From contig JAIUPA010000031.1 in the NCBI GenBank assembly GCA_020161665.1, positions 1 through 64,000 of the forward strand: a stretch of DNA of 64,000 bases. The letters are read 5' to 3'. The stretch is from Pseudomonadota bacterium. GTDB lineage: Bacteria > Pseudomonadota > Alphaproteobacteria > Rhizobiales > Rhizobiaceae. The notes beneath the pieces are model-generated. The model worked only from the letters and a program-made list of their open reading frames with translations, did not search any database and was not told where the DNA came from. Shown in pieces: positions 31,786 to 37,159 of the stretch (position 1 is the first letter of the stretch; every line of letters begins with the position of its first letter). The position numbers were made by a program, and so were the translations under genes.

Positions 31786-31815
31786 TTGACATTAAAATGA
31801 ACTAACTGGTACAAA
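31786..31815 (+). promoter_or_regulatory. Probable sigma70 promoter of the ABC-aro operon
   Basis: TTGACA (31786-31791), 17-bp spacer, GTACAA (31809-31814) as a weak -10 (TACAAA one base later). Predicted transcription start is about 31822, giving a leader of ~230 nt. Confidence 0.5.
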
Positions 31816-31859
31816 CAATCATGGTCAGAGGGACGGATGCACTGAGGAGACGCATTCCA

Positions 31860-32046
31860 CAAAGCCCCGACGAACCAAGGGAGTGATGTCGAAGTCCACT
31901 GGATTTCGCGAGGAGGTGTGCAGGCCGGTCCTGTCGGATTGCTGAAGGCGGTGCCCTGCAAGATGCCGGGCATGCCGGGGAACCATCCGGTTCAGCAGCA
32001 AGCCGCAAGGCAAGGTCTGTCGAGGCCCGCAGAACGGGTCCGGAGG
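31860..32046 (+). ncRNA. Candidate structured 5' leader (possible cis-regulatory RNA)
   Basis: The leader folds into a string of clean hairpins. These are GAC/GTC (31869-31871 with 31888-31890); GAAGTCC-ACT-GGATTTC (31891-31907); TGCAGG (31919-31924) with CCTGCA (31955-31960); GAACC-ATCC-GGTTC (31980-31993); GCC-GCAA-GGC with a GNRA tetraloop (32002-32011); and GGCCCG-CAGAA-CGGGTC (32024-32040). The last one abuts the CGGAGG ribosome-binding site (32041-32046). I do not recognise a known riboswitch class. Pairings were found by eye, not by folding software. Confidence 0.5.
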
Positions 32047-32050
32047 AACA

Positions 32051-32719
32051 ATGTCTTACAGTCTCGATTTCTCGGTGGTCGTCGCACGACTGCCCGAGCT
32101 TTTGCTCGCCTGCCTTGCGACGATCGGCCTTTCACTGGCTGGCATGTCGCTGGCGACGGTCATCGGCGTCTTGGGTGTCATCGCGCGGCGCTCGCGCTTT
32201 CGCCTCCTGCGCGGGCTGGTGATCGGCTTTGTCGAACTGATCCGCAACACGCCTTTTCTGGTGCAAATCTTCTTTATCTTCTTCGCTCTGCCGCAGCTTG
32301 GCCTTCGGCTGAACCCGACCGTGACCGCCATCATCGCTTTGGGTCTGAATGGCGGAGCCTATGCTATTGAAATCATTCGCGGTGGCGTTGATGCCATTCC
32401 GAAAGGCCAGGTGGAGGCGGGGCTTGCACTTGGACTGCACAGGGCGCAGATCTTCCGCCACATCATCCTGAAGCCGGCGCTTCGCACCGTCTATCCGTCG
32501 CTCACCAGCCAGTTCGTCATGCTGACCCTGACGACCTCGGTCTGCACTTCGATTGCCGCTTATGAGTTGACATCGGTCGCGCAGAAGATCGAGGCGGATA
32601 CGTTCCGTTCGTTCGAGGTCTATTTCTCGATCACGATCCTCTACTTGATCATTTCCTCGCTGATGATGGGCATTTTCGCGCTCATCTCCCGCTTTTCTTT
32701 CAACTATCCGGTCAAGTGA
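32051..32719 (+). CDS. ABC importer permease, polar amino-acid-type (HisMQ family), 1
   Basis: A 222-residue inner-membrane permease with ~5 helices. The EAA loop reads GAYAIEIIRGGVDAIPKGQVEAGLALGLHRAQIFRHIILKPALR. It pairs with the next gene as a heterodimer. First gene of an operon that continues into catabolic shikimate genes, so the cargo is probably not an amino acid (see the binding protein). Confidence 0.9.
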   Translation: MSYSLDFSVVVARLPELLLACLATIGLSLAGMSLATVIGVLGVIARRSRFRLLRGLVIGFVELIRNTPFLVQIFFIFFALPQLGLRLNPTVTAIIALGLNGGAYAIEIIRGGVDAIPKGQVEAGLALGLHRAQIFRHIILKPALRTVYPSLTSQFVMLTLTTSVCTSIAAYELTSVAQKIEADTFRSFEVYFSITILYLIISSLMMGIFALISRFSFNYPVK

Positions 32720-32729
32720 GGAGAAGACC

Positions 32730-33380
32730 ATGGCAAGCATCGGCCCCAACGAACTTTTCTTCCTGATGCAGGGCCTGAAATGGACCCTCGCGCTCACACT
32801 GGTCGGCTTCATCGGCGGCGGCCTGTTCGGCCTCATCGTTGCGCTCACCCGCACGGCACAGAACGATCTCGTCCGCCGCACGACAACCGGTTACATCGCC
32901 GTCTTTCAGGGCACGCCGCTCCTGATGCAGCTTTTCGTCGTCTATTACGGCGTGGCGCTGATGGGCTTCAACGTGGACGCCTGGGTGGCTGTTGCCATTG
33001 CCTTCACGTTGCATGCCAGTGCCTTTCTCGGCGAAATCTGGCGCGGCGGCATCCAGGCGGTGCCGAAGGGACAGACCGAAGCCGCCAAGGCCCTCGGCCT
33101 GCATTACGTCTCGATGATGAAGGACGTCATCCTGCCGCAAGCCTTCAAGATTTCGCTTCCGGCCACGATTGGCTTTCTCGTGCAGCTCATCAAGGGCACG
33201 TCGCTCGCAGCCATTGTCGGCTTTGTGGAATTGTCACGCGCCGGACAGATCGTCTCGAACCAGACGTTTCGCCCGCTCACCGTCTTCGCCCTCGTCGGCG
33301 TCATCTATTTCCTGATCTGCTGGCCGCTTTCGCTTTGGGGCGCCCGCGTTGAAAGGCGTCTGTCCACCGCATCCCGCTGA
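32730..33380 (+). CDS. ABC importer permease, polar amino-acid-type (HisMQ family), 2
   Basis: A 216-residue second permease subunit. EAA loop: HASAFLGEIWRGGIQAVPKGQTEAAKALGLHYVSMMKDVILPQAFK. It begins 10 bp after the first permease with a GAGGAGAAG site. Confidence 0.9.
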   Translation: MASIGPNELFFLMQGLKWTLALTLVGFIGGGLFGLIVALTRTAQNDLVRRTTTGYIAVFQGTPLLMQLFVVYYGVALMGFNVDAWVAVAIAFTLHASAFLGEIWRGGIQAVPKGQTEAAKALGLHYVSMMKDVILPQAFKISLPATIGFLVQLIKGTSLAAIVGFVELSRAGQIVSNQTFRPLTVFALVGVIYFLICWPLSLWGARVERRLSTASR

Positions 33381-33443
33381 GGACAGGCACCGCATCAAAA
33401 CCTGGAATGCAAACTTCATCAGCTTTGTAAGGAGGAGCAAAAG

Positions 33444-34280
33444 ATGAAAACCAACCTCAAGATCGGGCGTCGCACCCTGCTCGCCCTCGTGGCAGCCACC
33501 GCCGCCTTTCCGTTTCTGACCCCCGCCGATGCTTCGGCTGCATCGCTTGCCGATGCCAAGGCAAAGGGCAAGGTCGTGATCGGCATTCAGGGCGACAACG
33601 CGCCCTGGGGCTTTGTGAATTCCACCGGCGTTCAGGACGGCCTCGATGCCGATATCGGCAAGGCCTTCGCCGAACATCTGGGCCTTCAGGTCGAGTTTAC
33701 GCCGCTCGCCGTTGCCAACCGCATCCCTGCCCTTGTGACCGGAAAGGTCGATGTTCTGTTTGCCACCATGGGCATGACCGCAGAGCGCGCCAAGACGATC
33801 CAGTATTCGAAGCCCTATGCCGGCAACGTCCTGTCGGTCTATGGCCCCAAGGACAAGAAGATCGCCGGTTTCGATGACCTGACGGGCATGTCCGTCGGCG
33901 TACCGAAGTCGAGCGCCATGGATACTGCCATTACGGCCGGTGCCGGTTCCAAGGCCAATATCCTGCGCTTTGATGATGACGCCGCCAACATTCAGGCGCT
34001 GATCGCCGGACAGGTGGAAGCCGTCGGCGGCAACCAGTTCTACGGTGATCGTCTGAACGCCGCAGCCGCTGACAAGTACGAGACCAAGTTCGACCTCGTC
34101 ACCCTCTATAACGGTGCGGGAACGCGTCCGGGCGAGAAGGACTGGAACGAGGCGATCAACAGCTTCATCGACAAGATCAAGGCCGATGGCACGCTCGCCA
34201 AAATCTACGCCAAGTGGATGAAGCGCGATGTTCCGTCCTTCCCGGACGCTCTGCCCGACATCCCCTTCACCGTGAAGTAA
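33444..34280 (+). CDS. ABC importer periplasmic binding protein (SBP_bac_3 family)
   Basis: A 278-residue periplasmic protein with a signal peptide ending near residue 33 (ADASAAS). The body is of the lysine/histidine/glutamine-binding type ([29 protein letters not shown], keeping the carboxylate-binding Arg). The second-lobe Asp that binds the alpha-ammonium group of amino acids (DAxxxD motif) is replaced: the segment reads [13 protein letters not shown]. This suggests a ligand with a carboxylate but no alpha-amino group, such as shikimate or quinate, fitting the downstream enzymes. Confidence 0.88.
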
Positions 34281-34296
34281 GCAAACGGAGGCTCCC

Positions 34297-35058
34297 ATGC
34301 CGCAATCCGCCGCCGCACAGGTTCCGCTGATCGCCCTCGAAGGGGTCGGAAAGTGGTATGGAGCCTATCATGCACTCAAAAACATCAACCTGACGGTCAA
34401 AAAGGGCGAGAAGATCGTTCTTTGCGGGCCGTCGGGTTCGGGAAAATCGACGCTCATCCGCTGCATCAACCATCTGGAGGAAACCCAAGAGGGAAATATC
34501 ACGGTGGAAGGCACCACGCTTTCCGACTCCAGCCGCAGCATTGATGCGGTGCGGCGCGAGGTGGGCATGGTGTTCCAGAGCTTCAACCTCTTTCCGCACA
34601 AGACCATCATGGAAAACTGCACCCTTGCCCCCATGCGGGTGAAGGGTGTTTCCAAGGCCGAGGCGGAAGCAACGGCGCGCAAATATCTTGAGCGCGTGCG
34701 CATCCTCGATCAGGCCGACAAATACCCGGCCCAGCTTTCCGGTGGACAGCAGCAGCGCGCGGCGATTGCCCGTGCGCTGTGCATGGAACCGAAAGCCATG
34801 CTGTTCGACGAGCCGACATCGGCTCTCGATCCGGAAATGGTGAAAGAAGTGCTCGACACGATGATCGGTCTTGCCCGTGACGGCATGACGATGATCTGCG
34901 TGACGCATGAAATGGGCTTTGCCCGGCAGGTCGCCGATCGCGTGGTTTTCATGGCCTCGGGCGAGATCATCGAGGAAGGCCCGCCGGAGACCTTCTTCAG
35001 CAATCCGCAGCACCAGCGCACCCGTACCTTCCTCGGCGAAATCCTCGCCCACCACTGA
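34297..35058 (+). CDS. ABC importer ATP-binding protein (HisP/GlnQ family)
   Basis: A 253-residue ATPase. Walker [10 protein letters not shown], signature [15 protein letters not shown], Walker [15 protein letters not shown], switch His in [19 protein letters not shown]. It energises the two permeases encoded upstream; 16-bp spacing from the binding-protein gene. Confidence 0.94.
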
Positions 35059-35065
35059 AGATGGC

Positions 35066-35081
35066 GGCGGGTTCACCCGCC
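35066..35081 (+). promoter_or_regulatory. Hairpin between the transporter and the aroE-like gene
   Basis: GGCGGG-TTCA-CCCGCC, no T-tract. A possible partial terminator or message-stability hairpin within the operon. Confidence 0.45.
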
Positions 35082-35087
35082 CCCTTA

Positions 35088-35170
35088 GAGCATTGTTTTA
35101 ACGCAGTCCGAACGCAAAGCCGCTGACGCACTTTTGCTGGACATGCTCCAGTTTTCCGTCCGAACGAGAA
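35088..35170. repeat. Rhizobiales AGAGCATTT-type intergenic repeat, diverged copy
   Basis: AGAGCATTGTTTTAACGCA, then GCAAAGCCGCTGACGCACTTTTGCTGGACATGCTC and GTCCGAACG, resemble the common Hyphomicrobiales intergenic element (AGAGCATTTCCAGCAAAAGTG..., TCCGGAATTGCG). It lies between the ABC genes and the shikimate dehydrogenase. Other copies are at 47015-47062 and 62533-62595. Confidence 0.6.
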
Positions 35171-35182
35171 CGGTCCCGATCC

Positions 35183-36052
35183 ATGACAGAACACACTTCC
35201 TATCGCGTCGGCCTGATTGGGCGGACCATCCAGCACTCCAAATCGCCGCCGCTGCACATGCGCGAGGGGGCTGCCCACGGTCTCGATTACGTCTATGAAC
35301 TGGTCGATGCGACGGCCCGCAACCTGCCGGACAGCGCGCTTGGCGACCTGCTCGACGAACTTGAAGCGCGTGGTTTTGCCGGAACGAACATCACCCACCC
35401 CTTCAAGCAGGCCGTTATTCCCTTCCTCACCGATCTTTCCGAGGACGCCCGCATGCTGGGCGCGGTCAACACCATTGTGTTCAAGGATGGCAAGCGGATC
35501 GGCCACAACACCGACTGGTATGGCTTTTCCGAAAATCTCGTGCGCGGCCTGCCCGGTGCCAGGCTTGACCGTGCCCTGCTTCTGGGTGCCGGTGGCGCGG
35601 GCGTTGCCGTTGCCCATGCGGCGCTCAAGCTCGGCATCGGCCATCTCGATATTCTCGATCAGGACAGGGACCGAGCCGAGCGCCTGGCCGCAGAACTCAA
35701 CGAACGCTTTGGCCAACAGCGCGCCTTTGCGGTTGCCGATGCTGCGGAATCCCTGCCAAAGGCGGATGGCCTCATCAATGCAACGCCGGTTGGCATGCTC
35801 GCGCATCCCGGCATTCCCGTTTCGCCCGACCTGCTGGAGTCCCGTCACTGGGTGGCCGATATCGTTTACGTGCCGCTCGTGACGGAACTTCTGGCCGCGG
35901 CCCGCGACAAGGGTTGCCGAACGCTGCAAGGCGGCGGCATGACCGTTTATCAAGCCGCCGAAGCATTTCGTCTTTTCTGCGGAAAGCAGCCGGATGACGA
36001 GCGCATGACGGCCCATTTCAATGAACTTTGCGCTGAAGAGGCCCGATCATGA
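35183..36052 (+). CDS. Catabolic shikimate/quinate dehydrogenase (AroE family)
   Basis: A 289-residue shikimate-dehydrogenase-family enzyme. Substrate site: HSKSPPLHM, catalytic Lys in NITHPFK, Asp in GHNTDWYGF. Cofactor loop: GAGGAG. The NRTxxRA motif of biosynthetic NADP-dependent AroE is replaced by [11 protein letters not shown], with acidic residues at the 2'-phosphate position, as in NAD-linked catabolic quinate/shikimate dehydrogenases. It should oxidise shikimate to 3-dehydroshikimate and/or quinate to 3-dehydroquinate. The stop overlaps aroQ (36049-36052). Confidence 0.9.
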
Positions 36053-36489
36053 GCCTGTTTTACGTCCTGAATGGCCCGAACCTTAATCTTCTCGGCCAGC
36101 GTCAGCCCGAAATTTACGGCTACGAGACCATGGCCGATGTGGAACGCAATTGCCGGGCGCTGACAGACGCCGCCGGGCATCAGCTGTTCTTTGCGCAGAG
36201 CAACCGGGAATATGAGCTGATCGACTGGATTCATGAAGCGCGCGGCAAGGCGGCGGGCATCGTCATCAATCCCGGTGCCTTCACCCACACCTCAGTCGCC
36301 ATTCTGGATGCGCTCAATGCCTTCGAGGCCCCGGTGATCGAGGTTCACATCTCAAACATCCACAAGCGCGAGGTTTTTCGCCACCATTCCTATGTCTCGA
36401 CGCGAGCCGAAGGCGTGATCGCCGGGTTGGGCATCGAGGGTTACGAAATGGCGCTTCGCCATCTCATCAATCGTCTTGCACGCGGGTAG
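36049..36489 (+). CDS. aroQ: Type II 3-dehydroquinate dehydratase
   Basis: A 146-residue enzyme interconverting 3-dehydroquinate and 3-dehydroshikimate. Catalytic Tyr and Arg are in [21 protein letters not shown], substrate loop [13 protein letters not shown], catalytic His in [18 protein letters not shown]. Coupled to the dehydrogenase by ATGA, it serves catabolism (quinate branch) here. Its 3' end overlaps the convergent tetR gene by 23 bp. Confidence 0.95.
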
Positions 36490-37159
36490 GAATATGGTCT
36501 GGCCGCAGCACATAGCGCAGTACCATCTCCGCCACATGGGCCGAAAGCCGCTCTTGCCCGTCGTCTGTGAACAATTCACCGCCGAAAATATGGGAGAAGG
36601 TGGCGCTGTTCGAGACGTTGAAGAAGGACAGCGCGCTGATCTGCCAGTGCAGTTCCAGCGGATCGACGCCAGTGCGAAACACGCCGCTTTCCTGACCGCG
36701 CTTCAAAACGCCCTCCAGCGCTTCAATGGCCGGGCGATTGAGGCCGCGAATGGTCTGGGAAACCTGCATGTGACGGCCATGGTGGATGTTCTCGATCATC
36801 ACCATACGGATAAAATCGGGATGGCGGCGATGGTGATCGAAGGTGAACCGGCAGAGCCGCTCAAGCGCCGCCTGCGGGTCAAGCCCATCCAGTTCAAGGT
36901 CGCTTTCGCCGCCGCGCACCTTGCCATAGGCCTCTTCCAGAACGCGCTGGTAAAGCCCCTCCTTGTCGCCGAAGTAGTAATAGATCATGCGCTTGGATGT
37001 GCGCGTGCGGGCCGCAATTTCGTCAATGCGCGCGCCGGACAAGCCGTTTTGGGAAAATTCCTCCATCGCAACGGTGAGAATATCGCGGCGCACCCCTTCG
37101 GGATCGCGCTTGGCCACCTTGGCGGGTCGTTCCTTGGCCGTGGCGTTTTCCTCTTTCAT
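36467..37159 (-). CDS. TetR-family regulator of the quinate/shikimate block
   Basis: A 230-residue TetR repressor. [51 protein letters not shown]. The C-terminal ligand domain is of the large TetR_C type seen near aromatic-catabolic genes. It is divergent from quiC with a ~80-bp shared control region, so it probably represses quiC and perhaps the ABC-aroE-aroQ operon. Confidence 0.88.

Follow-up and report, generated by a model that had tools for sequence, protein, structure and literature searches.

A conserved GGAG-loop hairpin as a candidate control element in the leader of a putative shikimate uptake operon of Rhizobiaceae

The alpha-r14 small RNAs (sRNAs) carry a fixed CCUCCUCCC motif on hairpins whose stems vary, and act on transport mRNAs through motifs complementary to the Shine-Dalgarno sequence (anti-SD motifs; PMC10746234). 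AbcR sRNAs silence ABC-transporter mRNAs, again via anti-SD motifs (PMC8844928). Distant upstream sites for ribosome standby have been documented in E. coli (PMC3936740; PMC7708055). Here we compare with these systems the leader RNA of a transport operon found in a 64,000-nucleotide stretch of DNA (the window) from a genome of the Rhizobiaceae. Genome G002, of the same genus, and Allorhizobium borbori DSM 26385 (locus L020) have identical leaders.

The permeases of the operon are of the polar-amino-acid ABC type and its binding protein belongs to family 3. A TetR-family regulator gene (Pfam TetR_N and TetR_C_29) is convergent to the operon, a QuiC-like dehydroshikimate dehydratase gene also follows, and the leader is preceded by a gene of the Lyase_1 family that may be pcaB. 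Judged by these gene families, the natural reading is that the operon serves the uptake of shikimate or quinate and their breakdown via protocatechuate. The features of the locus are listed below, with loop sequences set between hyphens.

31786..31815, + strand: promoter, TTGACA (31786-31791), 18-nt spacer and TACAAA (31810-31815), conserved in 25 homologous loci
31800..31812, + strand: AACTAACTGGTAC, candidate operator for TetR, which overlaps the -10 box; its occurrence follows that of the TetR gene (80 loci compared)
31822..32050, + strand: untranslated operon leader, from the inferred start up to the permease ATG
31835..31857, + strand: hairpin 1, GGATGC-ACTGAGGAGAC-GCATTC, with GGAG at 31846-31849
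31880..31883, + strand: second GGAG copy
31890..31908, + strand: hairpin 2, CGAAGTCC-ACT-GGATTTCG, with GGAG copies on both flanks
31912..31915, + strand: third GGAG copy
about 31921-31933, + strand: hairpin 3, read from sequence
31922..32007, + strand: 86-nt insert, missing from L007 and L020, the two relatives aligned
within about 31939-31998, + strand: hairpin 4, long and interrupted, read from sequence
32002-32011, + strand: hairpin 5, GCC-GCAA-GGC, read from sequence
32024..32040, + strand: hairpin before the ribosome-binding site, GGCCCG-CAGAA-CGGGTC
32042..32047, + strand: Shine-Dalgarno sequence (SD) GGAGGA, read from sequence
32051, + strand: permease start codon ATG, the 3' boundary of the leader
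32051..36489, + strand: operon for two ABC permeases, binding protein, ATPase, shikimate dehydrogenase (SDH)-like protein and type II dehydroquinase
36467..37159, - strand: TetR-family regulator gene

The region around TTGACA-N18-TACAAA, with its AACTAACTGGTAC element, is the best-conserved portion of the intergenic region. The promoter was recognised through this conservation; a consensus scan listed another, weaker site instead. Among 80 loci compared, all 25 that bear the operator also encode the TetR protein at 70% identity or more, except L013, whose contig ends too early, and none of the loci without a TetR gene has such an operator. Diverged tandem versions of the operator occur in L035 and L037, where TetR identity is 69-72%, and no operator is recognised by the pattern in three loci with TetR at 47-50% identity. 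In surveys that sampled genomes rather than covering them exhaustively, the operator/promoter pattern was matched in 16 of 395 family genomes, with a single match per genome, and in 35 of 39 genomes of one genus, once each. In genomes further removed, the TetR gene and an SDH gene are transcribed divergently, with promoters of the form TTGACAAATTAACCAGACGGTACAT in between. The co-occurrence with the operator, together with these related promoters between TetR and SDH genes, makes TetR the probable cognate regulator. Because gene and operator co-occur, TetR probably also senses the substrate, and it is probably a substrate-sensing repressor of the operon. The protein reaches no NCBIfam equivalog cut-off, and a literature search on this regulator found nothing relevant among the papers covered. 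In the two loci with diverged operators, homologues from Mesorhizobium and Rhizobium, the 130 nt or so before the permease start hold a tandem pair of operator-like elements (TGGTACAAA), and L037 also has a hairpin, GCCGC-TTGAGGAG-GCGGC, directly before the SD.

From the spacing of the conserved promoter we infer that transcription starts near 31822, where the original prediction had guessed it; this promoter lies upstream of the hairpins, and thus sequence evidence does not place the start downstream of them. The same prediction described six hairpins in series, one with a GCAA tetraloop and one beside the ribosome-binding site, as a possible new cis-regulatory RNA matching no known class. 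All six are present to within one base, and the ribosome-binding site falls one base later than the proposed 32041-32046. Collectively, though, they are unremarkable: the minimum free energy of the whole leader has z = -1.0, with 28 of 200 dinucleotide shuffles folding equally well or better, and at this value overall folding energy was discarded as evidence for an element. The GCAA hairpin is there in the sequence but falls mostly within the 86-nt insert missing from the nearest relatives, which also contains hairpins 3 and 4; hairpin 2 is found in L007 as well. The hairpin at 32024-32040 is weakly conserved (9 of 22 clusters versus 4.9 expected; 8 of 300 shuffles reach 9). Leaders of homologous loci are between 91 and 234 nt long and, apart from the promoter and the GGAG loop, have little sequence in common. 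A covariance-model search of the leader against Rfam 15 returned no family at gathering thresholds or even at E<=10. No intrinsic terminator or attenuator was found in the leader; a leader peptide was rejected, as candidate upstream ATGs differ between leaders and no conserved upstream open reading frame was found. The insert at 31922-32007 is lineage-specific, with AGGC on both flanks. It was dismissed as a repeated element, since the leader DNA matches its own genome only once. What stands of the proposed cis-regulatory RNA is hairpin 1, in which pairing is kept while the stem varies, the loop is conserved and no Rfam family matches. Hairpin 1, which exceeds chance, had not been singled out in the prediction.

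Although the leaders diverge past the promoter, most of them can fold their first 70 nt into a hairpin whose loop contains GGAG. By a simple criterion of at least four pairs and a loop of at most 12 nt, this hairpin occurs in 17 of 23 independent leaders, each representing one cluster of similar leaders at a 72% identity cut. Dinucleotide shuffles of the same leaders yield a mean of 2.6 and a maximum of 8. When GGAG is held fixed and only its flanks are shuffled, the mean is 7.2 and the maximum 12, and none of 500 shuffles reaches 17. The best tetramer that does not overlap GGAG in sequence attains 4 clusters. As a control, 110 stretches of 70 nt in front of other genes of the same genome were examined and 5 contain a GGAG-loop hairpin; a general habit of its 5' untranslated regions was rejected. 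Leaders found after the hypothesis was formed behave similarly: once those whose match was the SD itself had been taken out, 9 of 13 have the hairpin (shuffle mean 1.2, maximum 5, none of 1000 reaching 9; flank-shuffle mean 3.9, with 1 of 1000 reaching 9). The loop GGAG lies 24 +/- 6 nt past TACAAAC. Several Agrobacterium leaders have no GGAG in hairpin 1. Stem sequences are unrelated between leaders and pairing is kept, as in the following examples.

L024: GGCGC-GAGGAGAGA-GCGCC
L028: AAACGC-GGGAG-GCGTTT
L017: TTGGCC-AGGAGGAGACCG-GGCCAG
L094: AAGGACGTG-GGGAGAG-CACGTCCTT
L101: operator plus GGCG-GTTGGAGGAT-CGCC before an SDH-like gene, read from sequence

Alignment of hairpin 1 by MAFFT followed by RNAalifold gave no structure, as stems and loops vary in length, and hairpin counts against shuffles were used in its place. 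Because pairing, and not stem sequence, is conserved, the data point to a function at the RNA level. Hairpin 1 looks like a real, undescribed control element and, as judged from these comparisons, the GGAG-loop hairpin is linked to this promoter and regulon.

GGAG is also the most enriched leader tetramer outside the SD (62 versus 31.2), and its complements are depleted (CUCC, 1 versus 6.5; CCUC, 2 versus 6.7). Sequestration of the SD was rejected on this ground, as CUCC and CCUC are the words able to hide it. Copies of GGAG outside the SD have a mean unpaired probability of 0.63, versus 0.40 for all tetramers; the similar purine words GAGG and GGAA come close to GGAG in this respect.

Hairpin 1 is best read as a docking site that mimics the SD and is bound by an anti-SD sequence, whether of alpha-r14/AbcR sRNAs or of the 30S ribosome. 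Tentatively, by a slim margin and at clearly less than an even chance, we favour a TetR-gated leader in which the partners of this hairpin are alpha-r14/NfeR1 and AbcR-type sRNAs. Specifically, the neighbouring TetR, as the likely sensor of the substrate, would gate transcription through the operator overlapping the -10 box, as their co-occurrence suggests. The 5'-proximal hairpin of the transcript would then show GGAG in its loop, backed up by the further GGAG copies and the SD, and an anti-SD sequence would read this loop and thereby tune translation. The sRNAs may first pair with the leader hairpin, loop to loop, and then either occupy the SD or be kept off it.

This genome has two AbcR copies in tandem and three alpha-r14 copies that score above the cut-off and carry CCUCCUCCC-type loops. 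The anti-SD motifs in the loops of these sRNAs (alpha-r14/NfeR1 and AbcR) are of the CCUCCUCCC or UUCUCCC type. The GGAG sites are complementary to such a loop and partly accessible, and the core of the motif also occurs in the 3' end of 16S rRNA. Calculated duplexes with alpha-r14 are better than those with the 16S end for 6 of 7 elements tested, because the C-rich stretch of alpha-r14 is longer; for hairpin 1 of the window the energies are modest, at -11 versus -8.6 kcal/mol, and the margin of alpha-r14 over 16S is not decisive. Since the 16S anti-SD has the same core, complementarity fails to separate sRNA from ribosome. Docking of sRNAs is supported by the counts in 17 of 23 leaders, 9 of 13 out of sample and 5 of 110 controls, by the enrichment of GGAG and depletion of CUCC, by the presence of alpha-r14 and AbcR in the genome and their known transport targets, by the duplex energies and by the co-occurrence of TetR and operator. 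Against it count the usual action of sRNAs at the SD itself, which in this leader lies about 195 nt downstream, the several Agrobacterium leaders without a loop GGAG, and some distant loci with a different leader.

If the ribosome were the partner, the GGAG loop and the later GGAG copies would hold the 30S subunit before the true SD, and no trans regulator would be involved. Such standby is almost as probable as docking of sRNAs. The GGAG copies tend to be unpaired (0.63 versus 0.40) and provide an accessible SD-like site upstream of the SD, CUCC is depleted in the leaders, and the upstream sites of E. coli offer a precedent (PMC3936740; PMC7708055). Standby would serve many genes, however, yet GGAG loops are not enriched in the other leaders of the genome. 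The unpaired state is equally a property of GAGG and GGAA, and the stem sequence varies freely with pairing alone kept, as would suit a 5'-end mRNA stabiliser whose purine-rich loop lacks a specific partner and serves just to prevent unwanted pairing. We consider this unlikely, as the loop selects GGAG specifically, with 17 clusters versus 4 for the best non-overlapping tetramer. A specific partner might also be a GGA-recognising RNA-binding protein that acts on the loop as CsrA/RsmA does elsewhere, and the layout of the leader, with a number of GGA motifs in its loops and between its hairpins, is like that of Csr targets. CsrA itself was rejected as the binder, because PF02599 is absent from this genome in a search that was positive in 3 of 14 control genomes. 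We know of no other candidate GGA-loop-binding protein, and hold this explanation to be quite improbable.

Least probable is the function that the original prediction had put forward, a riboswitch that senses shikimate, quinate or a related metabolite. The genes behind the leader are indeed likely to serve shikimate uptake and catabolism, and in distant members of the regulon a second type of structured leader has unpaired bases that are conserved. Nevertheless, the leaders hold no conserved aptamer-like sequence; with lengths of 91-234 nt, they share a variable-stem hairpin with a GGAG loop alone. There is no expression platform, whether intrinsic terminator or SD-sequestering strand, and no Rfam match. 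It is the lack of terminator, sequestering strand and conserved aptamer that makes a riboswitch unlikely, and the co-occurrence of TetR and operator explains a response to the substrate better, since TetR would account for the sensing. A literature search for a shikimate riboswitch found nothing relevant among the papers covered.

The second type of leader, which we call motif B, consists of two hairpins separated by AARACAAG, the first of them with an AUUUACC-like loop. It occurs in 16 distant TetR loci and in L225, from a different family within the order, and its spacing from the promoter upstream hardly varies (43-47 nt to ACAAG). Its positions are as follows.

L191:6822-6887, + strand: motif B
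L189:6903-6968, + strand: motif B
L199:268-334, - strand: motif B
L201:324-390, - strand: motif B
L194:6847-6913, + strand: motif B
L211:1393-1457, - strand: motif B
L225:1501-1566, - strand: motif B
Also in L193, L197, L198, L203-L206, L210, L212 and L213: motif B

The stem covaries, with 28 double-change cells where shuffling of columns gives 17.4 +/- 3.3 (none of 500 shuffles reaches 28) and a peak at zero slide, a count that rests on a structure named by us, as RNAalifold returned no pairs on the motif B alignment. Rfam gave no match at motif B in nine of these loci. With a covariance model of the motif run over 297 genomes, L225 alone among the top hits inspected was TetR-linked, and the others look like chance. 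Motif B takes the place of the GGAG hairpin in distant TetR-SDH loci and is a candidate undescribed cis-acting RNA. In L199, the ACAAGAGCGGCTGCAAGCCGCGGG unit of the motif stands in about four tandem repeats (about 170-334, - strand). In the genome of L189, and in this one genome, the TetR gene is immediately followed, on its own strand, by an alpha-r14-type sRNA gene (L189:6032-6118, - strand; 59.4 bits, just above the cut-off).

A broader and more doubtful proposal would join both leader types in one TetR-shikimate regulon of Rhizobiales with promoter-coupled leader RNAs. Here the GGAG hairpin would be the kissing-loop cis partner of alpha-r14/AbcR-type anti-SD sRNAs, such that an SD mimic further upstream, and not the SD alone, governs the transporter, and the distant AUUUACC-loop/AARACAAG leader would do an equivalent job. 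If the GGAG hairpin is indeed a docking site, then an mRNA can offer sRNAs or ribosomes an SD mimic well before its SD, and searches for sRNA targets that are limited to the start codon would miss such sites. A candidate TetR operator for shikimate uptake in plant-associated bacteria is now at hand, and motif B adds to the same regulon a candidate RNA family that is absent from Rfam.

Among described systems, TetR-repressed catabolic promoters resemble this locus in that a TetR gene lies close by and the operator overlaps the -10 box, although here the operator is a candidate identified by comparison only. CsrA/RsmA target leaders likewise present GGA motifs in hairpin loops, whereas this genome has no CsrA and the loop consensus extends to GGAG. 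The upstream standby sites of tisB and of synthetic leaders have in common with it a structured leader and an accessible site far upstream of the SD; here, instead, the SD-like loop is conserved and confined to one regulon. AbcR1/AbcR2 (RF02345) have ABC-transporter targets and both genes are in this genome, but their complementarity to the leader loop is short. The alpha-r14/NfeR1 sRNAs (RF02344) are reported to pair with their targets at the translation initiation region, whereas the conserved site here is an upstream hairpin. Their known targets encode transporters, as here, and the fixed CCUCCUCCC loop on a variable stem mirrors the fixed GGAG loop of the leader.
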